Virus record (IMG/VR): IMGVR_UViG_3300029286_000138
Location: 1 to 35,089 of that record
From: a virus
Length of the DNA: 35,089 bases
Direction: 5' to 3' (one strand)
Part shown: in pieces, positions 5,433 through 31,625 of the stretch
Layout: every line of letters starts with the position of its first letter
How positions within the stretch are numbered: the first letter of the stretch is position 1
Translations under genes and position numbers: made by a program
The notes under the pieces: generated by a model
What the model saw: the letters and a program-made list of their open reading frames with translations, nothing else
Database searches by the model: none
What the model was told of the DNA's origin: nothing

Positions 5433-5464
5433 TTTGGAAATCTCGTAAATTTGTTGTAACTTTG
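5433..5464 (+). promoter_or_regulatory. Bacteroidota housekeeping-type promoter facing into the protease gene (antisense)
   Basis: TTTG at 5433-5436 and TAACTTTG at 5457-5464, 20 bases apart, match the Bacteroidota -33/-7 consensus TTTG-N19-21-TAnnTTTG. A second -7-like box, TAAATTTG, lies at 5446-5453. Everything downstream to 20238 is on the minus strand, so a transcript from here would be antisense to the protease gene. The likely start is followed by the perfect palindrome GCCTTTTAAAAGGC (5472-5485), which covers the protease stop codon. Confidence 0.5.
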
Positions 5465-5476
5465 TAGCAATGCCTT

Positions 5477-6307
5477 TTAAAAGGCGAATAATGATTCTAC
5501 TGAAAAACCTAACACTTTCTTTGCTTTTACATACTGCCAGAGCTCTTCCCCAATGATTTTATATTCACAGAACCATCTTGTTTGTTTTAATTGTTCATCT
5601 TCTTCCAACCAACTATTCAATAAAATTGCTGATCCTGTTTTGTCCTCTTTGTGATTAACGGAAATACTACGATTGAAACCATATTTTTCTTTTGCTAATT
5701 TTACTGTTTCTCTACTAAAATATACATATCCCGGGTTATTTAATCCATCAACATTATTACGATAAATCATTTTTCCACTAACTAATACACAACCTTTAAC
5801 AATTCTTTTTTCATCATCTGCTAATGTTAAATAAATATCACCACTTTCTTCTGATAATGATTGATCTAAATATTTCCATTTATTCCTTGGTACTTCGTTA
5901 ATTGATGTACATCTTCTTAAAGTATGACGGCAATTATATAATTGTTGAGATCCTGAAAAATCTGTTGTATTTGTTCCATCGAATGTTTGAAAGAAATTTG
6001 AGTCCTGTATCCAACCTGCACTATAATAATTACCTTCCGAATGATTTAAATTAGCCCAATCTTGTATTTCAATTTCGTGATAAACACGACCAGCGTGTTC
6101 CTTACAAAAGGGGTGTGATGTTGCTATAACTTCTGGTTCCGGTGAACAAGTAAATTTGAAATATGGTAACACTGCTGGTATATCATATTTGAAAAATTCA
6201 AAATTTTCCTGTATTGCGGGACTTTCCACAAATGAAATTAATTCAACACCTGTCCTGTCATCTGGGTTAATCTTTAATTCTTTTATCTTAAATAATGGTT
6301 TTTCCAT
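5477..6307 (-). CDS. XkdF-like prohead protease with MuF-like N-terminal region
   Basis: A 276-residue protein. The C-terminal half (about residues 160-276) matches the XkdF/Peptidase_S78_2 pattern: RIVKGCVLVSGKMIYRN, GYVYFSRETVKLAKEKYG, ISVNHKEDKTGSAILLNSW, and the ending YVKAKKVLGFSVESLF. This is the maturation protease that processes scaffold and capsid proteins. The central part (residues 60-140) carries HPFCKEHAGRVYHEIEI and YNCRHTLRR, which resemble Cys-His segments of MuF-type head proteins. The N-terminal ELISFVESPAIQENF is common in phage structural proteins of Bacteroidota. It is last in the leftward tail operon and separated from the capsid island by a terminator. Confidence 0.75.
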   Translation of the reverse strand: MEKPLFKIKELKINPDDRTGVELISFVESPAIQENFEFFKYDIPAVLPYFKFTCSPEPEVIATSHPFCKEHAGRVYHEIEIQDWANLNHSEGNYYSAGWIQDSNFFQTFDGTNTTDFSGSQQLYNCRHTLRRCTSINEVPRNKWKYLDQSLSEESGDIYLTLADDEKRIVKGCVLVSGKMIYRNNVDGLNNPGYVYFSRETVKLAKEKYGFNRSISVNHKEDKTGSAILLNSWLEEDEQLKQTRWFCEYKIIGEELWQYVKAKKVLGFSVESLFAF

Positions 6308-20238: not shown

Positions 20239-20261
20239 GCCAATATATATGATTTTTCGAT

Positions 20262-20586
20262 TTATTGGGGTAATGGTTGTATCTTATATTCCGATAAATT
20301 ATTATCTATGATATATTGATTTCTTATTTCTATTGCATCAGAAAGATTAACATGAAATCCAATATATTTACCATCACAATGGACACCATATCCACTCTTT
20401 ACTTTAGATACACCAAAGAATTCGGTGGTACAATTTTTATTTTTTCTCTTATTTGAATTTTGAATATGGGCTGAAACCCATCGTAAATTTCCGGGTTCAT
20501 AGTTTAGGTCATTGTTACTTCTATCTAATGTTAATCCCTGACCATAATTTGGGTCGGAACCGGGAGTGACTACTACACCCCGGTTT
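20262..20586 (-). pseudogene. HNH homing endonuclease remnant (C-terminal half, with AP2-like module)
   Basis: An open frame of about 107 codons with no usable start codon, bounded upstream by an in-frame TAA at about 20589. It encodes YGQGLTLDRSNNDLNYEPGN followed by LRWVSAHIQNSNKRKN, the second half of an HNH homing endonuclease active region. It then has FFGVSKVKSGYGVHCDGKYI and ...SDAIEIRNQYI, an AP2-like DNA-binding module. The N-terminal half of the nuclease is missing, so it should be inactive. The truncation point coincides with the GTGACTACTACAC hairpin at 20558-20590 and abuts the plus-strand gene at 20641. Confidence 0.75.
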
Positions 20587-20590
20587 TTTT
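20558..20590 (+). terminator. Terminator-like hairpin, first copy of the GTGACTACTACAC element
   Basis: The stem pairs AACCGGG (20558-20564) with CCCGGTT (20579-20585) and GTG (20566-20568) with CAC (20576-20578). A20565 is bulged, the loop is ACTACTA, and T20584-20590 follows. No plus-strand gene lies upstream, so its job as a terminator is unclear. The T-run occupies the -33 region of the promoter for the gene at 20641. The loop and closing pairs are identical to a hairpin at 30714-30750. Confidence 0.7.
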
Positions 20591-20607
20591 ATTTCAATAA
20601 TTTTACT

Positions 20608-20615
20608 TATCTTTG
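20608..20615 (+). promoter_or_regulatory. Bacteroidota-type -7 promoter element
   Basis: TATCTTTG matches TAnnTTTG exactly, 25 bases before the ATG at 20641. No clear TTTG -33 box is visible; the corresponding position is the T-run of the preceding hairpin. It would let host RNA polymerase transcribe this gene independently of the leftward tail operon. Confidence 0.6.
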
Positions 20616-20640
20616 TAATCTAACATTTAAAACAAACAAT

Positions 20641-20907
20641 ATGAAAACAACAGAAATTACTTGGATAGATTTGAATACTCCTCCTGATGATTACAACATG
20701 TCTGACGATGTGCTTCATACCATTTTAGATCATATGGAACTTATACCAAAGGAACAAAAGTTTCGTTTTGGTTTCGATGATGACAATACCGTTTATTTGG
20801 AATTAGAAGGTGAATCTGAAATTGTTGTTATCAAAAGTAGTTTATTAAAAGCGCTTGAAGACATTCAAAAGAAGATGGATGAAGATGGATTTAGTTTCCG
20901 TAATTAA
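20641..20907 (+). CDS. Plus-strand accessory (moron-like) gene, acidic protein
   Basis: An 88-residue acidic protein. The ATG at 20641 follows AAACAAACAAT, a typical Bacteroidota leader, which decides it over an upstream GTG at 20566 within the hairpin. It starts TTEITWIDLNTPPDDYNMSD and ends KKMDEDGFSFRN. The middle (FRFGFDDDNTVYLELEGES) reads as a small beta sheet and a helix follows. It is alone on this strand within the leftward structural genes and has its own host-type promoter, which is the moron pattern. No family recognised; acidic mimicry or anti-defence is possible but unproven. Confidence 0.75.
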   Translation: MKTTEITWIDLNTPPDDYNMSDDVLHTILDHMELIPKEQKFRFGFDDDNTVYLELEGESEIVVIKSSLLKALEDIQKKMDEDGFSFRN

Positions 20908-21020
20908 TCATCATTCATATTTGAAAATATTTGGTCAATCGAAATTATCTTTGGGATATAACCTCTTTTATCTGCCCAATACCTATAATCTTTTCCTTGT
21001 GATAATCCGTGACTTTTCAT
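20904..21020 (-). CDS. Possible 38-residue protein
   Basis: A short open frame, ATG at 21020 and TAA at 20904. It encodes a basic N-terminus (MKSHGLSQGKDYRYWADKRG) followed by an amphipathic segment and an acidic end. It begins 14 bases after the stop of the frameshifted chaperone frame. It overlaps the stop of the converging plus-strand gene by 4 bases. The composition looks coding, but nothing proves expression. Confidence 0.4.
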   Translation of the reverse strand: MKSHGLSQGKDYRYWADKRGYIPKIISIDQIFSNMNDD

Positions 21021-21033
21021 ATTATATCTATAC

Positions 21034-21312
21034 TTATAAAGCTAAGAGGTTTTTACTATCTTTCATTTCTTGAATGTTATGTTCCTGTTTACTTATTGTT
21101 AAATAATCCAGAACTTCATACAAAGGCAACCTACCTACTTTTTCCATATTCAAAATATTATTATTTGATAATATCTTTTGAGTGAAGTACCAAATGAAAT
21201 ATTTATTTATATTATCTATTTGGTGTTTGTAGGCACTTGATTCATACTCACTTTCAGAAGGTTCAAATAATGAGCCCTGATATTGTTCATATACTTGAAT
21301 GCGACAATCGAA
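21034..21312 (-). CDS. -1 frame extension of the tail assembly chaperone (GT-like C-terminal domain)
   Basis: Entered by a -1 shift at T TTT TTT, this frame encodes 92 residues from FDCRIQVYEQYQGSLFEPSE to a TAA at 21034. Visible parts are KYFIWYFTQKILSNNN and RLPLYEVLDYLTISKQEHN, an ordered helical domain of the kind seen at the C-terminus of frameshifted tail chaperones, which bind the tape measure. The fusion product would be 234 residues (142 + 92). The frame has no good start of its own near the junction; an internal ATG would give only 37 residues. Expression depends on the shift or on a base-count error in the T-run. Confidence 0.6.
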   Translation of the reverse strand, partial: FDCRIQVYEQYQGSLFEPSESEYESSAYKHQIDNINKYFIWYFTQKILSNNNILNMEKVGRLPLYEVLDYLTISKQEHNIQEMKDSKNLLAL

Positions 21313-24513: not shown

Positions 24514-24727
24514 TTTTAATTTTTAATTTTTCTATTAAATAAGCATCTTTTATAAATAGTGAACAAACTTCCTCTTTATAATCCATACCATCCATCTTAC
24601 AATAAAATCTTACCGTATCATCAGAATATTGATAACACTCAATTTCTGAAACTGTATAATATTTTTCAATTATATTTCTCTTATAATTTTTGTACCATTC
24701 TATAATTACATTATCTATTTGCTCCAT
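24506..24727 (-). CDS. Small protein between terminase and SGNH hydrolase genes
   Basis: A 73-residue protein with a helical N-terminus (IIEWYKNYKRNIIEKYY) and a beta-rich middle (VRFYCKMDGMDYKEEV). It overlaps the terminase stop by 13 bases and the SGNH gene start by 8, which supports coupled translation. No domain recognised. Confidence 0.65.
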   Translation of the reverse strand: MEQIDNVIIEWYKNYKRNIIEKYYTVSEIECYQYSDDTVRFYCKMDGMDYKEEVCSLFIKDAYLIEKLKIKND

Positions 24728-25989
24728 GACATACTTGCTTGTTTTTTAAACTCGAAGTATGCACGGAGATAAGTTGCGTCACTTATATCGTTCGAGAAAC
24801 TTAACTTTCTTTTAATTTCATCCTTTGGTGTAATACCAGCAATATCACCTTTAAATACTTTCTTAACAACTAAATATTCCTGTAGTTCTTTATCATCTAA
24901 TTTCCAATTAAAATTAACAGATAAATTGTTTACCTTTTCTGCAAACTTATAATATAATTGTGCTTTCATATTTGGAAATTTTTCACCATTGAAACATGAA
25001 GAGTTAGCATAATATTTTACACAACCATGAAGATAACCAGCAACCCCACTTCCAACACCACTCGAGTCAATAATTACATTAGATATACGACATTTATAAG
25101 TGTTCATAATCTCCTTTATCTTTTCAACAATTTGTGGTGATTCTGATTTTATTAAAATATGTTTTTGAACAGCATTCCAACCTTTCCACAATATAATTAC
25201 AGTTCTATCTTTACCTGTATCTGCTGGGTCAACTGTTATATAAGTATCATCTGATACATTTGTAAAAAACTCGTTGTAATATATTTGGACTAATTTCTCA
25301 TACTCAAACAAAGAAAAGTCATCATCGAATGACCAATTACCTAATAGTAATCTATTTCTTAATTCCGGTTCTAGATTATCCAAAGATTTAACATAACTTT
25401 CAGAAACATATTTATTATCTTTAATTGTTGCAGGAACATATACTGTACCATTTGGAGGATTTTTTATAAGTTCGTGTAAGTGTCCCGGACATGGGTTTGT
25501 AGTAATGAGTAGTTTACCAGTAATACCAAACTCATCAAGTTTGTATCTCATTCTAGTTTTAATAATTGTTATCGCCTTTTGAGAAATTTCTGCACCCTCA
25601 TCAATCAAACCGGCAGAAAATTCTGTGCCGGAAAAGCGTATGTATTCGGTGTCTGATGGGTACTCAAAGAAATCCAAACAATATATTTCAGATCCATTTG
25701 AAAAAGTATACACAAAATTTTGATTATTGAAAGATACCATATTACTTAAACCCCAAGAATCTATTAAAGAGTTCATTGTGAGAATGGTGCTACGGCGAAG
25801 TGTACTTAATCTTGACCTCCCCATAAACATTCTATTACCGGGATAACGAAGAGAATTAATAACCAACCACGCACAACCCAACCAGCTCTTGCCGGATCCA
25901 AGACTCCCACCATAGACCACAGTATCAATATCTTTTCTTTCAAGGTATTGAAACGCAATATGTTGTTTCGGTTGTGGTTTAAAATTTAT
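24715..25989 (-). CDS. terL: Terminase large subunit, apparent AUA start
   Basis: The packaging motor ATPase and nuclease. Walker A is YGGSLGSGKSW, Walker B-like is FSAGLIDEGAEIS, and the nuclease domain has VDPADTGKDRTVIILWKG and VIIDSSGVGSGVAGYL. The conserved N-terminus (INFKPQPKQHIAFQYLERKD) lies upstream of the first conventional start, GTG at 25920, and removing it would lose the segment before Walker A. The frame opens after a TGA at 26001-25999 and has no ATG, GTG or TTG before it. ATA at 25989 overlaps the small-subunit stop as ATAA, in the same geometry as the ATGA overlaps elsewhere here. From there the product is 424 residues. A -1 shift at AAA just before that stop is an alternative. 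Confidence 0.88.
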   Translation of the reverse strand: MNFKPQPKQHIAFQYLERKDIDTVVYGGSLGSGKSWLGCAWLVINSLRYPGNRMFMGRSRLSTLRRSTILTMNSLIDSWGLSNMVSFNNQNFVYTFSNGSEIYCLDFFEYPSDTEYIRFSGTEFSAGLIDEGAEISQKAITIIKTRMRYKLDEFGITGKLLITTNPCPGHLHELIKNPPNGTVYVPATIKDNKYVSESYVKSLDNLEPELRNRLLLGNWSFDDDFSLFEYEKLVQIYYNEFFTNVSDDTYITVDPADTGKDRTVIILWKGWNAVQKHILIKSESPQIVEKIKEIMNTYKCRISNVIIDSSGVGSGVAGYLHGCVKYYANSSCFNGEKFPNMKAQLYYKFAEKVNNLSVNFNWKLDDKELQEYLVVKKVFKGDIAGITPKDEIKRKLSFSNDISDATYLRAYFEFKKQASMSWSK

Positions 25990-26462
25990 TTCGATATGTC
26001 ATTATCATTAATTTTTATAACCACTTGGTCATCTGTTTCAACCTGTGGTTGATGATAATGAAGAATAAGACTTGTAGAATTTATATCTATTTGTCCTTTA
26101 ACGATATGTAATCCCAAAAGGTCAGCAAGTAATTTATATCCTGATAATGTATTTTTAATATCACCATTTCTTTTTGCTAAGTCAATGGTATCCATGATAT
26201 CGGTGAGTATTCTTTCCTTTGATAAATGTAAATCCTTAAATTTATCTTTGTAATAATTATCAACAAATTCAGATACTAATTGTTTTTTATTTTCAAGTAA
26301 GTTTCTGAAGTGATTGTGTTTCTGAATCTTATTCCATAAAACTTTATCAGGATATAACTGATCAAACACCACTAATTTGTTCCAATTGTTTACAATTAAT
26401 AGTGTTAAAATTTGTATATCCTTATTACTCAATACATTATGTTTTACAATTTTATAACTCAT
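25986..26462 (-). CDS. Terminase small subunit (probable)
   Basis: A 158-residue, mostly helical protein directly before the large terminase gene. The central helix pair (KERILTDIMDTIDLAKRNGD and SGYKLLADLLGLH) is like the oligomerisation core of Terminase_2-type small subunits that recognise the packaging site. An N-terminal helix-turn-helix is plausible around residues 12-50. The C-terminus is acidic. It is preceded by TATATATA (26468-26475) and by a strong terminator at 26479-26506, so transcription must start in the short space between or read through. Confidence 0.7.
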   Translation of the reverse strand: MSYKIVKHNVLSNKDIQILTLLIVNNWNKLVVFDQLYPDKVLWNKIQKHNHFRNLLENKKQLVSEFVDNYYKDKFKDLHLSKERILTDIMDTIDLAKRNGDIKNTLSGYKLLADLLGLHIVKGQIDINSTSLILHYHQPQVETDDQVVIKINDNDISK

Positions 26463-26478
26463 ACATGTATATATAAAA

Positions 26479-26506
26479 AAAGGTGGGTCTTGTTTGACCC
26501 ACCTTT
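26479..26506 (-). terminator. Strong leftward terminator before the terminase operon
   Basis: On the minus strand AAAGGTGGGTC (26506-26496), loop AAACAA, GACCCACCTTT (26489-26479), then further T residues. This 11-bp stem with a U-run is a classical intrinsic terminator. It lies between leader copy A (26527-26587) and the small terminase gene, so it either ends a short RNA of about 100 nt or serves as an attenuator. Confidence 0.9.
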
Positions 26507-26526: not shown

Positions 26527-26587
26527 TGTTGTTGTCATCAAAATGACCCCCCTTACTTTTTCATTTTGTTTTATTTTAAGATTAGTG
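26527..26587 (-). repeat. Leader element copy A, with Met-Lys-Lys mini-ORF
   Basis: A 61-base sequence almost identical, in opposite orientation, to 30878-30937. On the minus strand it begins CACTAATCTTAAAAT, has ATG AAA AAG TAA at 26564-26553, then G6, a short hairpin GTCAT-TTTG-ATGAC, and ACAACAACA. It faces the terminase operon. A related upstream box, AGCGTTTCGCCGAATA, lies at 26607-26622 (plus strand). Confidence 0.9.
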
Positions 26588-26638
26588 AGTGATTAATTTC
26601 AATTATAGCGTTTCGCCGAATAAAAAAAATTTACCAAT
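26588..26638. other. Spacer with GCGTTT box upstream of leader copy A
   Basis: AT-rich spacer. Plus-strand AGCGTTTCGCCGAATAAAAA (26607-26626) has a reverse-complement counterpart, AGCGTTTAGCCGAAATAAAA, upstream of leader copy B (30814-30833). The box-to-leader distance is 19 bases here and 44 there, so it is more likely a protein site than a promoter element. No gene is visible. Confidence 0.5.
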
Positions 26639-26986
26639 ATACTCAAATACTCACTCATTTTTACGCCTATATATATTTTTTTTCAAAATTGAAAAATTGA
26701 AGTGAGTATTTGATGAGTATTTGTATGAGTATTTGAGTATAAACATGAGTATAAACATAAGAAAATAAGTGTATATATATATATATCTATATATGTTATA
26801 TTATTATATATTATTATATATTAATTACTTACTGTTTTATACATTATCCAAAAATAAAAAAATATATAAGGGCTAAAAACAGGTGAGTATAAATTAAAAA
26901 ATCCAGTTTTTTTAACTGGATTTTTTAATAATTTCAAAAAACTCATGAGTATTTGAGTATATACTCATGATATTTTTGAGTATAAA
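26639..26986 (+). repeat. GAGTATTTG/GAGTATAAA iteron cluster, candidate replication origin
   Basis: Nine direct copies of GAGTAT occur at 26704, 26715, 26727, 26735, 26747, 26885, 26947, 26955 and 26978; all but the one at 26955 continue as TTG or AAA. Inverted copies (ATACTC) lie at 26639, 26647 and 26961, the last forming the palindrome GAGTATATACTC (26955-26966). Between the groups, 26770-26830 is almost pure A/T, suitable for unwinding. The array holds no gene and runs into the 3' end of the primase-helicase gene. Iterons plus an AT-rich stretch beside a replication gene are the usual structure of an origin. Confidence 0.7.
26896..26926. terminator. Bidirectional terminator within the iteron region
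   Basis: AAAAAATCCAGTT (26896-26908), five-base T loop, AACTGGATTTTTT (26914-26926): a perfect 13-bp stem with A and T tracts in both directions. It would end the leftward primase operon before the main iteron group. Confidence 0.9.
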
Positions 26987-29346
26987 TGGTGATTTTTTTT
27001 ACTTATAAGATTAAAATTTTTCCATTTTGAAATCATTCTTGTTAAGGTAGATTTTGAATAATTATATTTTTGATTTTTATTTACAGAGTCTATACTTTTA
27101 AGATTAAATTCTTTTGGTAATAGATCAAGAAAATCCGTTTTTAAATTATTATAATTCATAACGACATCATCTGTTCCAGCAATATTATTAAATAATAATT
27201 CGGAATGTTTAATTAAAATTTTTACGATTTCAATAGAATTATAAAAATCTATATCATCAACAAAAATAATATTATCTTCCATAATATTAATATTTTCCCT
27301 TTTCTTAATATTAAATATATTATTTTCATATCTTCTTAAACAAGAAAGAATTCCCATAATTCTAACAGCAACCAAACCATGTCGTTTAACTATTGCGTCA
27401 TAAGAGATAGAGTTATAATCTACAATATCGTTCATTTCTCTAGAAAAAATACTATCAAATTCCGATATTTGTTTATCTGTTAATTTTACATTCCAGTAAT
27501 CTGAAATATAATCATCAATCATATTTTTTAATTGAAGTGACGCTAACTCGAAGTTCTTCATTCCTTTTAAATCGTAATCTTTAAATGGACTAATCCATTT
27601 AGATTCCATATCAAATAGATAATAAATAAATCTACTTAATAATCCGTTTTCAGCACCTTTTTTACCAATCATGTTTTTTGGTTGGTCGATAGTTCCACTT
27701 ATACAAACACTTATATTTGGTGATTTAATCCTTCTTTTTTTACTAACTCTACCAATATTTATATCTTCATTTTGAAATGCGTTTCTTAAAACAACTGAAA
27801 AATCACCCCATCCACCTTGTTTACCACCTTCATTATTGGATGTAAGTATATCAGCTTCATTTTCAAATACAATACCAACACCTTCATTATTTATTAAATC
27901 TTCATTTACACTAGCTTTGGATGAATCACCAGCAATTAATAAAGATTTCAATATTGGAGGTTCTATATGTTTCTTCTCTTTATCATCTAGTAAAATATAT
28001 TCATCATATGATTTTATATAATTTTCATAAAAAGTATCTTCAGTTTTATTTAAAATCTTTTTAGATGATGACATAATACCTTTCCCCAATCCTGATCTAG
28101 CACCGATGAAAGTATAAAAATTTAAAAATTGTTTTTTTCTGAAATATGTTGTTGAAACAGTTTTAAAACATGGACCGAGTATAGTCAATAATGATAACAA
28201 AATCAAATCCTTATCTCTACTAGAATCGAATATATAAGTTAAATTTTTAAGAAATTCTGGTAAATCGTCATATACTTTTGTAGGTATTATTGGTGTGTTT
28301 CTTAAATCGTTTCTTTCAATTTCTTCATCAACTTCATCTTCTACTGTTTCTATTTCTTCGAATTTTATTGGTGGTATTATACCTTTATTAAAAAAGAAAA
28401 CACTCAACAATAAATCATTACCATCTTTTTTAGATAAAACATGTTCTTTAAATGTCTTAAAGTCTATTAAATATTTTCTAAATCCACCATTTTTAGAATA
28501 ATTTTCATTTATCATATTATAAAACCAATGAATAATATCTTCTGGTTGATTTCTTAAACAATAGAATAATCCGTTAAATTTATCGTAATGTTCAAATATT
28601 TCTTTAAATTTATCTTTATTAAATTCGTAAAGATTATCTAAATAAGGAATTTGTATTTTTTCATTACCATTGACAATTTCATAATTTTCTTCTTTAATTA
28701 TGATATTTTCATTGTAAAGAGGTTCCCATTCATCTTTGTAAAAGGAACCTGTTATACAATACCTAAATGTTACCTGTGATAATTTACCCGCGGATACATC
28801 ACCAGCGTATTTTCTATTTAATTTTATACCATAATTATCTGATAAATACTTCATCAGAAATTGATAATTGGATTTATGTATTTGTTTTAATATATTGGTA
28901 GGGTAATCAATACCATATTTAATATATTCTTCAAAGAATGAAGATTGAATATTTACGAATCCTCTTATTCCAAATAATGATTTTGAAAGGCCACCACTTA
29001 TTATATGTGTATCATTTTTGAGTTTATCAACAAATTCCTGTAATGATTTTGTATTTGTATCGGAATAGAATAATTCCAATTCTTTTAGTTTATCTTCTTC
29101 GTTATCGAAATGAAAATCTATATCAAAGAAATTCATTGACGGACAAAGAAAATCATCAGCGGTTTTACCGTTAACGGTATTATTTATAACGTAACATGGT
29201 TTATCTGTATATGGTGGATCTTTTCTAATTTCATCGAAAAAATCATCCATATCATATTCCACCGGTCTTTCCCATTTTATTGATGTATCTATTTTACTCC
29301 ATTTATAGAATTTTAAATTATCTTTAATTTCGTCTTTACTTAACAT
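26965..29346 (-). CDS. Primase-helicase (BT4734-like N-terminal domain plus DUF3987 ATPase)
   Basis: A 793-residue protein. The N-terminal part (about residues 65-240) carries FFDIDFHFDN and ISGGLSKSLFGIRGFVNI, the pattern of BT4734/VirE-N type primase domains. A DUF3987 helicase-like ATPase follows: Walker A GARSGLGKG at about 412-420, Walker B-like GVGIVFENEADIL near 490, then ISGTIDQPKNMIG and LLSRFIYYLF. The C-terminal 70 residues look like a winged helix (YSKSTLTRMISKWKNFNLI). It is the likely replication initiator and unwinding protein. It is last in a three-gene leftward operon and ends inside the iteron cluster. Confidence 0.85.
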   Translation of the reverse strand: MLSKDEIKDNLKFYKWSKIDTSIKWERPVEYDMDDFFDEIRKDPPYTDKPCYVINNTVNGKTADDFLCPSMNFFDIDFHFDNEEDKLKELELFYSDTNTKSLQEFVDKLKNDTHIISGGLSKSLFGIRGFVNIQSSFFEEYIKYGIDYPTNILKQIHKSNYQFLMKYLSDNYGIKLNRKYAGDVSAGKLSQVTFRYCITGSFYKDEWEPLYNENIIIKEENYEIVNGNEKIQIPYLDNLYEFNKDKFKEIFEHYDKFNGLFYCLRNQPEDIIHWFYNMINENYSKNGGFRKYLIDFKTFKEHVLSKKDGNDLLLSVFFFNKGIIPPIKFEEIETVEDEVDEEIERNDLRNTPIIPTKVYDDLPEFLKNLTYIFDSSRDKDLILLSLLTILGPCFKTVSTTYFRKKQFLNFYTFIGARSGLGKGIMSSSKKILNKTEDTFYENYIKSYDEYILLDDKEKKHIEPPILKSLLIAGDSSKASVNEDLINNEGVGIVFENEADILTSNNEGGKQGGWGDFSVVLRNAFQNEDINIGRVSKKRRIKSPNISVCISGTIDQPKNMIGKKGAENGLLSRFIYYLFDMESKWISPFKDYDLKGMKNFELASLQLKNMIDDYISDYWNVKLTDKQISEFDSIFSREMNDIVDYNSISYDAIVKRHGLVAVRIMGILSCLRRYENNIFNIKKRENINIMEDNIIFVDDIDFYNSIEIVKILIKHSELLFNNIAGTDDVVMNYNNLKTDFLDLLPKEFNLKSIDSVNKNQKYNYSKSTLTRMISKWKNFNLISKKNHHLYSKIS

Positions 29347-29355
29347 TCATATCTA

Positions 29356-29538
29356 TTATTTTTTATAATTCCTCATTAATTTATCCATTATAAATCTTCC
29401 GAATAAGAAATCTCTATCTATCACAACTTCATTTTTATATTTTTCATCAAATTCTTTGGATAATTCTTCATGTATATCTTCTGGAAAATTCAATTCCATT
29501 TTATTTCTATCATCTATATAGATTGTTTCTTTAATCAT
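29356..29538 (-). CDS. Small acidic protein before the primase-helicase gene
   Basis: A 60-residue protein (FPEDIHEELSKEFDEKYKNE in the middle) with a basic C-terminus. The ATG overlaps the stop of the preceding ribbon-helix-helix-like gene as ATGA, and the primase-helicase gene starts 9 bases after its stop. It is helical with charged ends. No family is recognised; a regulatory partner of its neighbour is possible. Confidence 0.65.
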   Translation of the reverse strand: MIKETIYIDDRNKMELNFPEDIHEELSKEFDEKYKNEVVIDRDFLFGRFIMDKLMRNYKK

Positions 29539-29720
29539 AACCCAACCCTTTCCACTTGTTTTGATACTTCTTCAATTAAATTCATTCCATGTTTCTTAAC
29601 TAGAAAATCTATAAAATAGCTTTTCCTTATACCTAATTTTTTTGATGCAATACCAATAATATCATATGCTTCCTGTGATATGTAATACATTACTGGTTTT
29701 TCGTTTTCTTTCAATTTCAT
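29535..29720 (-). CDS. Ribbon-helix-helix-like regulator (tentative)
   Basis: A 61-residue protein. The pattern KPVMYYISQEAYDIIGIASK followed by LGIRKSYFIDFLVKKHG reads as a beta strand, a first helix, and a second helix starting with a Ser/Tyr N-cap, the CopG/Arc-type arrangement. Such proteins bind as dimers to short operators. It is first in the leftward replication operon, so it may control the divergent region at 29721-29905, which carries two small inverted repeats. Confidence 0.55.
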   Translation of the reverse strand: MKLKENEKPVMYYISQEAYDIIGIASKKLGIRKSYFIDFLVKKHGMNLIEEVSKQVERVGL

Positions 29721-29905
29721 AACCTATTTATTAATTTTTGTCCTTTCGGATGATGTTATATATATAAATGGTATGGCTCAAAGTTTATGTTTTATAAAAA
29801 TAATTAAAAATAATTTAAACAAATTCATTAACCTAATCTATAAATCATAAATCCCATTGGGATAGAATAAATCGGAACACCGTTCCTAAAAAGAAAACAA
29901 ATAAA
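29721..29905. promoter_or_regulatory. Divergent promoter region with two small inverted repeats
   Basis: This 185-base gap separates the leftward replication operon from the rightward gene at 29906. TATATATATA lies at 29757-29766. Two short inverted repeats lie in the rightward leader: ATCCCATTGGGAT (29851-29863) and GGAAC-ACC-GTTCC (29874-29886), 20 bases before the ATG. They could be operators or RNA hairpins that control translation. No exact TAnnTTTG box was found. Confidence 0.5.
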
Positions 29906-30655
29906 ATGGAAGAATTAGAAAAAAATGTACCGGAAGAATTAAATGATGATTTATCATTTTTGGGTGGAAACAATGAAGTTTCAAAATATGAAAAATATTA
30001 TTTTGCTAAGTTGTATACAAAAAAGGGAACTGAACCTCATTTCAAATTTCGTAGAATTGTTGATGGTGTACCAACTGATGTTAAAGGAACTACAAAAACG
30101 ATTAGTGGTAAATTGAATAAAATTACATTCAGTCAATATGAATATGAGGGTGTAACATTAAAGACAGTCAGGTTTAATTTTGAAACTTTGAATGAAGATG
30201 GAAAACTTGTTGGAATAAGTTGGGGGTGTGGTTGGAATTCAGTATTACAGAATCTTGTAAATTGCTTATTGAATGAAGAAAAGGAAATAAAATCTTTATT
30301 GGTATCTGTTTATAAGGATCCAAAATCGGATTATAATAAAGCGATGTTTCGTGTAAATGGTAACAAACCAGAATGGAAATATTCAATAGAAGAATTGAAT
30401 GAAAAGAAAGAAAAAATTTTCAATAAGAAAGGAGAACTTGTTAAAACTGAAGTTGGTGAATTGGTTGATTTTCTTGAATCCGAATTAAAAAATCATCTAA
30501 ATGTTATTCTACCAAATTTCAAACCAGAAGAAGAAATTAAAGAAAACGTAACACCAACTATTGTTGAAAGTTCAATAAATGATTTTTTCAAAGAAGATCC
30601 TGATATGGAGTTGGGAGTTGATGAACCAACACCACCACCAAAGAAGAAAAAATAG
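29906..30655 (+). CDS. Possible single-stranded DNA-binding protein
   Basis: A 249-residue protein with an acidic N-terminus. The central region (about 30-165) is beta-rich with aromatic residues (YYFAKLYTKKG, FKFRRIVDG, RFNFETL, GISWGCGWNSVL), and the C-terminal region is charged, ending DEPTPPPKKKK. Size, composition and the single-gene unit opposite the primase-helicase fit a phage single-stranded DNA-binding protein, but the end lacks the usual acidic tip of bacterial SSB and no family was confirmed. The ATG follows AAACAAATAAA. It is followed by a structured 3' region and terminators. Confidence 0.5.
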   Translation: MEELEKNVPEELNDDLSFLGGNNEVSKYEKYYFAKLYTKKGTEPHFKFRRIVDGVPTDVKGTTKTISGKLNKITFSQYEYEGVTLKTVRFNFETLNEDGKLVGISWGCGWNSVLQNLVNCLLNEEKEIKSLLVSVYKDPKSDYNKAMFRVNGNKPEWKYSIEELNEKKEKIFNKKGELVKTEVGELVDFLESELKNHLNVILPNFKPEEEIKENVTPTIVESSINDFFKEDPDMELGVDEPTPPPKKKK

Positions 30656-30750
30656 TGTGCCATACACGCTAGACATCCTCGCAGGGAATTGCAAACGATG
30701 TTTGAGGGGGTCGAAAATCGGTGGAGTGACTACTACACTCCCCGATTTTT
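30653..30750 (+). ncRNA. Structured GC-richer 3' region, possible small RNA
   Basis: In otherwise AT-rich DNA this stretch folds into consecutive stems: TAGTGTG-CCATA-CACGCTA (30653-30671, including the stop codon of the gene before), CAAAC-GAT-GTTTG nested under CCTC/GAGG (about 30676-30706), and a terminator hairpin at 30714-30750. No gene is visible in it. It could be a 3'-UTR-derived RNA or a separate transcript. Confidence 0.4.
30714..30750 (+). terminator. Terminator, second copy of the GTGACTACTACAC element
   Basis: AAAATCGG (30714-30721), bulged T, GGAGTG (30723-30728), loop ACTACTA, CACTCC (30736-30741), CCGATTTTT (30742-30750). The 14-bp stem and T-run make a strong terminator for the gene at 29906-30655. 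The loop and its closing pairs, and the preceding GGGTCG, match the hairpin at 20551-20590. Confidence 0.85.
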
Positions 30751-30779
30751 AAAATACTTTTAATTTGTCATCCATTGTT

Positions 30780-30817
30780 AAATCCCGGTGTTAGTCCATT
30801 GACATCGGGATTTTTTT
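30780..30817 (+). terminator. Second intrinsic terminator
   Basis: AAATCCCG (30780-30787), then TGT/ACA after a one-base mismatch, a loop of 10 bases, CGGGATTT (30806-30813) and T to 30817. It backs up the terminator 30 bases upstream and insulates leader copy B from upstream transcription. Confidence 0.85.
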
Positions 30818-30877
30818 ATTTCGGCTAAACGCTTTCCCACGCTTCCAAAAGATTGAGATACACTTCTTGTTTTATAC

Positions 30878-30937
30878 CACTAATCTTAAAATAAAACAAA
30901 ATGAAAAAGTAAGGGGGGTTGTTTGATGACAACAACA
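30878..30937 (+). repeat. Leader element copy B, with Met-Lys-Lys mini-ORF
   Basis: A 60-base sequence differing from copy A (26527-26587) only in a few bases after the G6 tract. ATG AAA AAG TAA is at 30901-30912, after AAATAAAACAAA. It then has G6, a hairpin TTGT-TTGATG-ACAA, and ACAACAACA. A second small hairpin, GGTTGT-GAC-ACAACC (30949-30963), follows without a T-run. It heads the rightward nuclease operon starting at 31027. Confidence 0.9.
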
Positions 30938-31026
30938 AAGGTCAAGGTGGTTGTGACACAACCCAGTGTAGTTTTGTATAAAAAAAATTTAGACTTTATA
31001 CTCAATTATTTTTTATATATATTATT

Positions 31027-31266
31027 ATGTTGGAAGGATATTACAGAAGGGACTCAATATTATATATGTATGATAGGAAACATTATAAAAGGGAAATGTT
31101 GAGAAATGAACTCATGACAAAAATTTGGAATGAGACCGGTAATTTTGTATATATACCACCAGATTCAAAAGATTTAATAGATGATGATGAGGAAGTTGAT
31201 ATACCAGATCAAATAATAGAAGAAATGATTGATGAAGATTTTGAAGAAAAAAATGAAGAAATATGA
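31027..31266 (+). CDS. Small protein with highly acidic C-terminus
   Basis: A 79-residue protein. The N-terminal half is basic and aromatic (YYRRDSILYMYDRKHYKREM) and the C-terminal half very acidic (DLIDDDEEVDIPDQIIEEM). It lies 90 bases after leader copy B and is first in a three-gene operon. Its stop overlaps the nuclease ATG (ATGA). The charge pattern suggests a protein-binding or DNA-mimic tail; no family recognised. Confidence 0.65.
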   Translation: MLEGYYRRDSILYMYDRKHYKREMLRNELMTKIWNETGNFVYIPPDSKDLIDDDEEVDIPDQIIEEMIDEDFEEKNEEI

Positions 31267-31625
31267 AAACAAGTTCAGCTAAAGCAAAAGGTCGTAGTTT
31301 ACAAAATACCATAAGAGAACAATTGAAATTAAATTTTCCTGAATTGGAGGAAGATGATATCAAATGTCAAATTATGGGTTGTTCAGGTGTAGATATTTTA
31401 CTTTCACCTGCAGCAAAGAAACTTATTCCATATTCGATAGAATGTAAAAATCAGGAAAAATTGAATATTTGGGAATCTTTAAAACAATGTGAAAAAAATT
31501 CCAATGGATTAACACCAGTATTATTTTTTAAAAGAAATCGTACCGATGTATATGCTGTAATAAAGATGGAAAAATTTATGGATTTTATTTCACCAAATTA
31601 TACAAATTATAAGAGCTATTTATAA
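31263..31625 (+). CDS. PDDEXK-type nuclease, Holliday junction resolvase-like
   Basis: A 120-residue protein. The core is KAKGRSLQNTIREQL (residues 7-21), GCSGVDILLSPAAKKLIPYS with Asp44, and IECKNQEKLNIWESLKQCE with Glu60 and Lys62. The D...ExK arrangement, Gly before Asp, and a Gln-containing helix after the Lys are typical of small phage PDDEXK nucleases such as resolvases. It probably processes branched replication or recombination intermediates before packaging. It is coupled on both sides (ATGA and TAATG). Confidence 0.75.
   Translation: MKTSSAKAKGRSLQNTIREQLKLNFPELEEDDIKCQIMGCSGVDILLSPAAKKLIPYSIECKNQEKLNIWESLKQCEKNSNGLTPVLFFKRNRTDVYAVIKMEKFMDFISPNYTNYKSYL

Follow-up and report, generated by a model that had tools for sequence, protein, structure and literature searches.

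The window analysed here, that is, the whole stretch of 35,089 bp, is the complete IMG/VR record IMGVR_UViG_3300029286_000138 and belongs to a tailed phage. Its terminase large subunit (TerL) is nearest, at 25-35% identity, to those of phages infecting Flavobacterium, Cellulophaga and Bacteroides, which makes a Bacteroidota host likely, and since the end of the record falls within a repetitive tail-fibre gene, the record may be incomplete. The subject of this work is a pair of nearly identical elements of about 60 nt, copy A and copy B (Table 1), which lie in opposite orientation on either side of a segment holding a DUF3987 gene, two small open reading frames (ORFs) and a 249-aa ORF without assignment, and which both face outwards from the DUF3987 gene and the genes next to it. 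An earlier note on this DNA had called the segment a replication module, a fair label for one with a primase/helicase-type gene, and had copy A face a terminase operon and copy B a nuclease operon; both assignments were confirmed by the TerL gene and a RusA-like gene, respectively. Operon A is a packaging/structural/lysis block and operon B a RusA-like nuclease block.

The paired leaders at the heads of these operons are real and well defined, and the sequence, coordinates and orientation of the two copies proved to be exactly as first described. The copies share 42 identical nt, followed by 2-4 variable bases and then by another 16 identical nt, and constitute the record's only non-tandem repeat (self-BLAST: 61 nt, 95% identity, E 1e-19). 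Their 32-mer core had no match in shuffles of the window. Each copy can be read as an A-rich start region, a mini-ORF encoding the peptide MKK, a run of six G residues (G6), a short hairpin and the motif AACAACA, with G6/C6 runs being rare in this DNA (just three in 35 kb).

Conservation between the two operon heads extends beyond the 60-mer. The second shared box that had been reported 19 nt before copy A and 44 nt before copy B was recovered at these distances and found to be longer than reported (22-23 bases), with a score reached by none of 2000 shuffles and by no random window pair. Two features had been overlooked, namely an intrinsic terminator that separates copy A from the first gene, and a 13-mer, TTTTTTATATATA, which is found exactly twice in the whole record, both times 5 nt before the ATG of an operon's first gene, and which exceeds in length every other same-offset match among 666 gene pairs. 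Among 37 genes, the start regions of these two first genes are the richest in U, those of the remaining genes being mostly A-rich. The order of blocks is the same at both heads (upstream box, 60-mer, TTTTTTATATATA, N5, ATG), and a putative common leader would thus comprise the upstream box, the 60-mer, a variable stretch that includes another hairpin, and the U-rich TTTTTTATATATA-N5-ATG. Since the spacers between the shared blocks fail to align between the A and B regions, the arrangement suggests that the control regions are old paralogues in which selection has preserved the blocks, though gene conversion is also possible.

Both leaders are preceded by terminators that isolate them from upstream transcripts. 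The terminator after copy A has an 11-bp stem, and its U-tract runs into the start region of the first gene (ATG 26462), leaving no room for another promoter; if the annotated start is right, the packaging operon would therefore be expressible only by transcription that passes this terminator. The idea of paired leaders at two operon heads is thus supported by orientation, isolating terminators, collinear blocks and the terminator after copy A, whereas membership among the put antitermination sites of phage HK022, which the leaders had been said to recall, was not supported (see below).

Table 1. Coordinates of the paired leaders and surrounding features in the window.
Feature	Coordinates	Strand	Remark
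Copy A, conserved element	26527..26587	-	61 nt
Copy B, conserved element	30878..30937	+	60 nt
Identical block CACTAATCTTAAAATAAAACAAAATGAAAAAGTAAGGGGGGT, copy A	26546-26587	-	42 nt
Identical block CACTAATCTTAAAATAAAACAAAATGAAAAAGTAAGGGGGGT, copy B	30878-30919	+	42 nt
Identical block TTTGATGACAACAACA, copy A	26527-26542	-	16 nt
Identical block TTTGATGACAACAACA, copy B	30922-30937	+	16 nt
Mini-ORF (MKK), copy A	26553..26564	-	ATG AAA AAG TAA
Mini-ORF (MKK), copy B	30901..30912	+	ATG AAA AAG TAA
G6 tract, copy A	26547..26552	-	
G6 tract, copy B	30913..30918	+	
Hairpin, copy A	26534..26547	-	GUCAU-UUUG-AUGAC; 5' arm starts at last G of G6
Hairpin, copy B	30918..30933	+	GUUGUU-UGAU-GACAAC; 5' arm starts at last G of G6
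Upstream box TTTTTTTATTCGGCGAAACGCT, before copy A	26607..26628	-	
Upstream box TTTTTTTATTTCGGCTAAACGCT, before copy B	30811..30833	+	
13-mer TTTTTTATATATA, operon A	26468..26480	-	
13-mer TTTTTTATATATA, operon B	31009..31021	+	
Terminator-like palindrome before copy A	26896..26926	-	ends DUF3987 transcript; sequence seen directly
Terminator before copy B	30782..30817	+	ends upstream plus-strand transcript
Further terminator-like hairpin before copy B	30720-30745	+	
Strong intrinsic terminator after copy A	26475..26506	-	AAAGGTGGGTC-AAACAA-GACCCACCTTTTTTT; between copy A and first gene
Weaker hairpin after copy B	30949..30963	+	GGTTGTGACACAACC; no good U-tract
Operon A first gene	25986..26462	-	158 aa; ATG at 26462; probable small terminase, by position only
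TerL gene	24715..25920	-	
Operon B first gene	31027..31266	+	79 aa; ATG at 31027; no assigned function
RusA-like Holliday junction resolvase gene	31263..31625	+	
DUF3987 primase/helicase-type gene	26965..29346	-	within bracketed segment

That the copies differ just after G6 while each retains a hairpin there was borne out by folding of both variants, which gave one short hairpin of 5-6 bp per copy (-5.4 kcal/mol in A and -7.0 kcal/mol in B). The base differences sit in the 5' arm and the 3' side is constant; with random variable bases, equal or better stability would arise with a chance of 0.05 in A and 0.018 in B. The hairpin is thus kept despite changed bases, which favours action of the 60-mer as RNA and is our best evidence for it.

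Our preferred reading, held tentatively and at somewhat less than an even chance, is that the conserved core of the two leaders is a cis-acting RNA site coordinating the packaging/structural and resolvase operons, such that operons A and B would stand under a single control. The core would act in the nascent transcript, with G6, hairpin and AACAACA forming the recognition site, and its recognition would let the transcription complex, and possibly also the ribosome via the mini-ORF, past the terminator or hairpin between leader and first gene, so that both operons would open together late in infection. We infer here that the region is transcribed and folds as drawn, that ribosomes translate MKK and that regulation acts at readthrough. 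More doubtful, and in our view rather unlikely, is the wider claim that the pair represents a hitherto undescribed class of paired leader RNAs in Bacteroidota phages, in which minigene, G6 and hairpin switch late-operon transcription past a start-site terminator to coordinate packaging and resolvase genes. A compact, minigene-bearing pair of this kind would make a clear test of late-gene switching in Bacteroidota phages possible, and may be useful as a gene-expression part in Bacteroidota hosts.

Several results weigh against an RNA site of this kind. No antitermination protein, N-type ones included, was recognised with PHROGs or Pfam, though many ORFs of the record are without assignment. No canonical terminator was found downstream of copy B, and regulated readthrough is therefore clear for A only. 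The isolated 60-mer RNA folds no better than shuffles (z 0.4 and -0.8), and the perfect identity over 42 nt, which includes A-rich filler, exceeds the needs of a hairpin RNA site and could stem from a promoter, gene conversion or recent duplication. Finally, with two copies in one genome and no homologue found, there is no cross-species covariation.

Bacteroidota hosts are without Shine-Dalgarno sequences and have a promoter consensus of their own. This consensus includes a -7 box, TAnnTTTG (PMC9723704), which we took to mark a sigma-A promoter when located about 5-12 bp before the start. Compared with the sigma-A promoters of Flavobacterium and Bacteroides, the record has A-rich translation starts of the host type and canonical boxes at 5457, 20608 and 20946, but none upstream of copy A or B, making a phage-specific promoter within the 60-mer a serious rival. 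The 60-mer would then be a phage-class promoter with its initial transcribed region, the upstream box an activator site, and copies A and B the late promoters, at which a host RNA polymerase modified by a phage factor would initiate. Such a promoter, which we consider possible though unlikely, fits the long perfectly conserved block, as expected of DNA recognition, and the repeated promoter-like intergenic sequences that some TerL-related phages carry (L056 and L033 among them, described below). The differing distances of the box, however, place it outside any rigid core promoter, the retention of the hairpin after base changes is unexpected for a DNA-only site, and neither a sigma nor an RNA polymerase gene was recognised with the same two databases, many ORFs again being without assignment.

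Another explanation makes the MKK minigene itself the working part, its translation or a stalled ribosome controlling the first gene, either by freeing a start region paired with the A-rich MKK segment or by covering G6 and thereby letting other pairings form. Translation of MKK is plausible: the mini-ORF start is preceded by A at -3, -6, -12 and -13, which stimulates initiation in Flavobacterium johnsoniae (PMC6847099), and 86-89% of all ATGs of the record score lower in start context, although 25 of its 37 genes score higher. The A-rich part is not special by itself, as AATAAAACAAAATGAAA alone is a generic start region seen in other phages. Leader minigenes regulating in cis are documented (PMC8708949), and the MKK segment is complementary to the U-rich starts of both first genes (ranks 2 and 3 of 30 genes). 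Moreover, base pairing is possible between G6 with the bases after it and the right arm of the hairpin further downstream (in A, GGGUC:GACCC; in B, GGGUUGU:ACAACCC), and each right arm prefers its own leader, that of A by -14.7 vs -12.1 kcal/mol with B's leader and that of B by -11.4 vs -7.9 kcal/mol with A's. Yet the fold with the alternative pairing is weaker than the best fold by 7.6 (A) and 2.3 (B) kcal/mol, and against random variable bases it reaches p of about 0.06 in each copy, an optimistic value given that these tests were devised after the sequence was seen. Pairing of MKK with the start region amounts to 5.9 expected pairs in B but just 0.3 in A, a ribosome on MKK opens neither start codon in the ensemble, and the synonymous positions of MKK are identical between copies as well. 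We regard the G6 and MKK pairings as leads, and a minigene-driven switch as improbable. An MTTT ORF past the hairpin (ATGACAACAACA) was rejected as a gene: it stops after 4 codons in A and its start is not gene-like, G-rich Shine-Dalgarno sequences not being the rule at this phage's gene starts.

It is more improbable still that the elements serve DNA metabolism, as R-loop replication starts primed by transcription and involving G6, as a packaging site or as inverted repeats for inversion of the module. The copies do flank replication genes, the terminase genes come directly after copy A, which adjoins a dense GAGTAT array and AT-rich DNA, and G clusters stabilise R-loops. On the other hand, no recombinase was recognised and the middle parts of the arms are not alike; a pair of packaging sites facing opposite ways would be unusual, only A has the GAGTAT array, and the 13-mer at a fixed spacing from the ATG points to gene expression. 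Least probable of all is that an ordinary leader was recently duplicated or copied by gene conversion, its conserved bases having no special function; there are just two copies and no outside conservation, as this would predict, but flanks and spacers have diverged beyond alignment while three blocks were kept in order, one of them at fixed spacing. A transposon was dismissed, no terminal inverted repeats or target duplications being seen by eye.

Known systems resemble the preferred RNA site in part. The put RNA of HK022 suppresses termination without added factors, through the zinc-binding domain of the RNA polymerase beta' subunit. It is about 70 nt long and forms two long stem-loops (PMC9378689), as opposed to the one short hairpin per copy seen here, and membership in put was accordingly not borne out. 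Like putL and putR, the copies are two similar sites of 60-70 nt at two operon heads with a terminator ahead, at least for copy A; unlike them, they head packaging and nuclease rather than early operons, include a mini-ORF and G6, and belong to a different host phylum. The nut sites of phage lambda form a pair of leader sites directed outwards from a central module, each with conserved flanks and a short hairpin that is slightly different in the two copies. A two-copy short hairpin between conserved flanks in paired outward leaders is found here as in nutL and nutR (boxA-boxB), but the conserved block is far longer here, the mini-ORF is not part of nut and no N-like protein was recognised; AATCTTAAAA presumably bears a loose likeness to boxA, the part of nut that binds NusB-S10, with no boxA match established. 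Leader-peptide attenuators and minigenes (trp-type; axe-txe mg2) likewise place a short leader ORF before a terminator or regulated gene. The ORF here, however, has three codons only, the folding energies do not favour ribosome-coupled switching of the trp type, and an intrinsic terminator precedes the first gene in operon A, with only a weak hairpin in operon B.

Rfam gave no family at or above its gathering threshold for the elements. The L20 leader (RF00558), likewise AU-rich and ending in a terminator, matched over copy A with 25.6 bits against a gathering score of 58.7 and was rejected; the match stems from the terminator and from AU-richness, and there is no L20 gene. Our literature search found no described element with mini-ORF, G6 and hairpin, in agreement with the earlier note, which knew of none, and no described antitermination or leader-RNA control for Bacteroidota phages.

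The element is known from one genome, in two copies, and its absence elsewhere is not proof. Pattern scans of IMG/VR and GTDB contigs returned chance matches and no related element: two lie within coding sequence (L001, L092), one beside a CRISPR array (L091), and two lack the rest of the element (L089, L090). About 170 TerL- or RusA-related loci and 23 whole records showed a generic A-rich start region or nothing, as did 395 genomes sampled from the phylum of genome G020, where an empty result is no proof. Single-protein searches returned no close relatives for TerL and DUF3987 and no phage matches for the 249-aa and 158-aa proteins. Absence from all related phages had been put forward as a reason to give up the element; it is absent in every relative found, but as these share only 25-38% TerL identity, their lacking it does not refute the finding. 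Three TerL-related contigs, L056 (6255-12372), L033 (646-1770) and L014 (1381-4955), have repeated intergenic promoter- or leader-like sequences of their own, different per contig; L056 has three copies, centred on TATATCTTTG or a near variant of it, and L033 has two, and none in the three contigs has a mini-ORF with G6. In the Paludibacteraceae contig L091 (7260-8000), ATGAAAAAATAAGGGGGGT adjoins a TATCTTTG box at the edge of the CRISPR array, probably by coincidence; the CRISPR repeats end in AATTTCTGCTACTGCAGAT and by eye resemble Cas12a repeats.

Further observations concern the surroundings of the copies. Beside the DUF3987 gene, 12 of the record's 31 GAGTAT/ATACTC copies fall inside 350 bp (26637-26985). 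This array, which comes with AT-rich DNA and the palindrome TCATGAGTATTTGAGTATATACTCATGA (26943-26970), may be an origin of replication or a set of operators. In operon A, the TerL frame has no ATG at the homologous N-terminus (25900-25990) and EINFKPQPKQHIAFQYLERKDIDTVVYGG lies upstream of a GTG at 25920; a non-standard start, a frameshift or a sequencing error are candidate causes. At 29535-29720 a 61-aa ORF without database match reads by eye as a ribbon-helix-helix DNA-binding protein and may be a regulator. Past the 249-aa gene, a GC-rich RNA segment at 30656-30755 is strongly folded (z -3.45), with a G5 run and a terminator at its end, and is possibly a small RNA.

Elsewhere in the record, a canonical Bacteroidota promoter on the plus strand at 5436-5470 (TTTG, 20 nt, TAACTTTG) points antisense into the gene at 5477-6307. 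A 977-bp gap in the minus-strand structural block (20239-21215) contains a plus-strand ORF, listed with 113 aa, and the TAnnTTTG box at 20608 precedes its likely ATG start (MKTTEITWIDL...).

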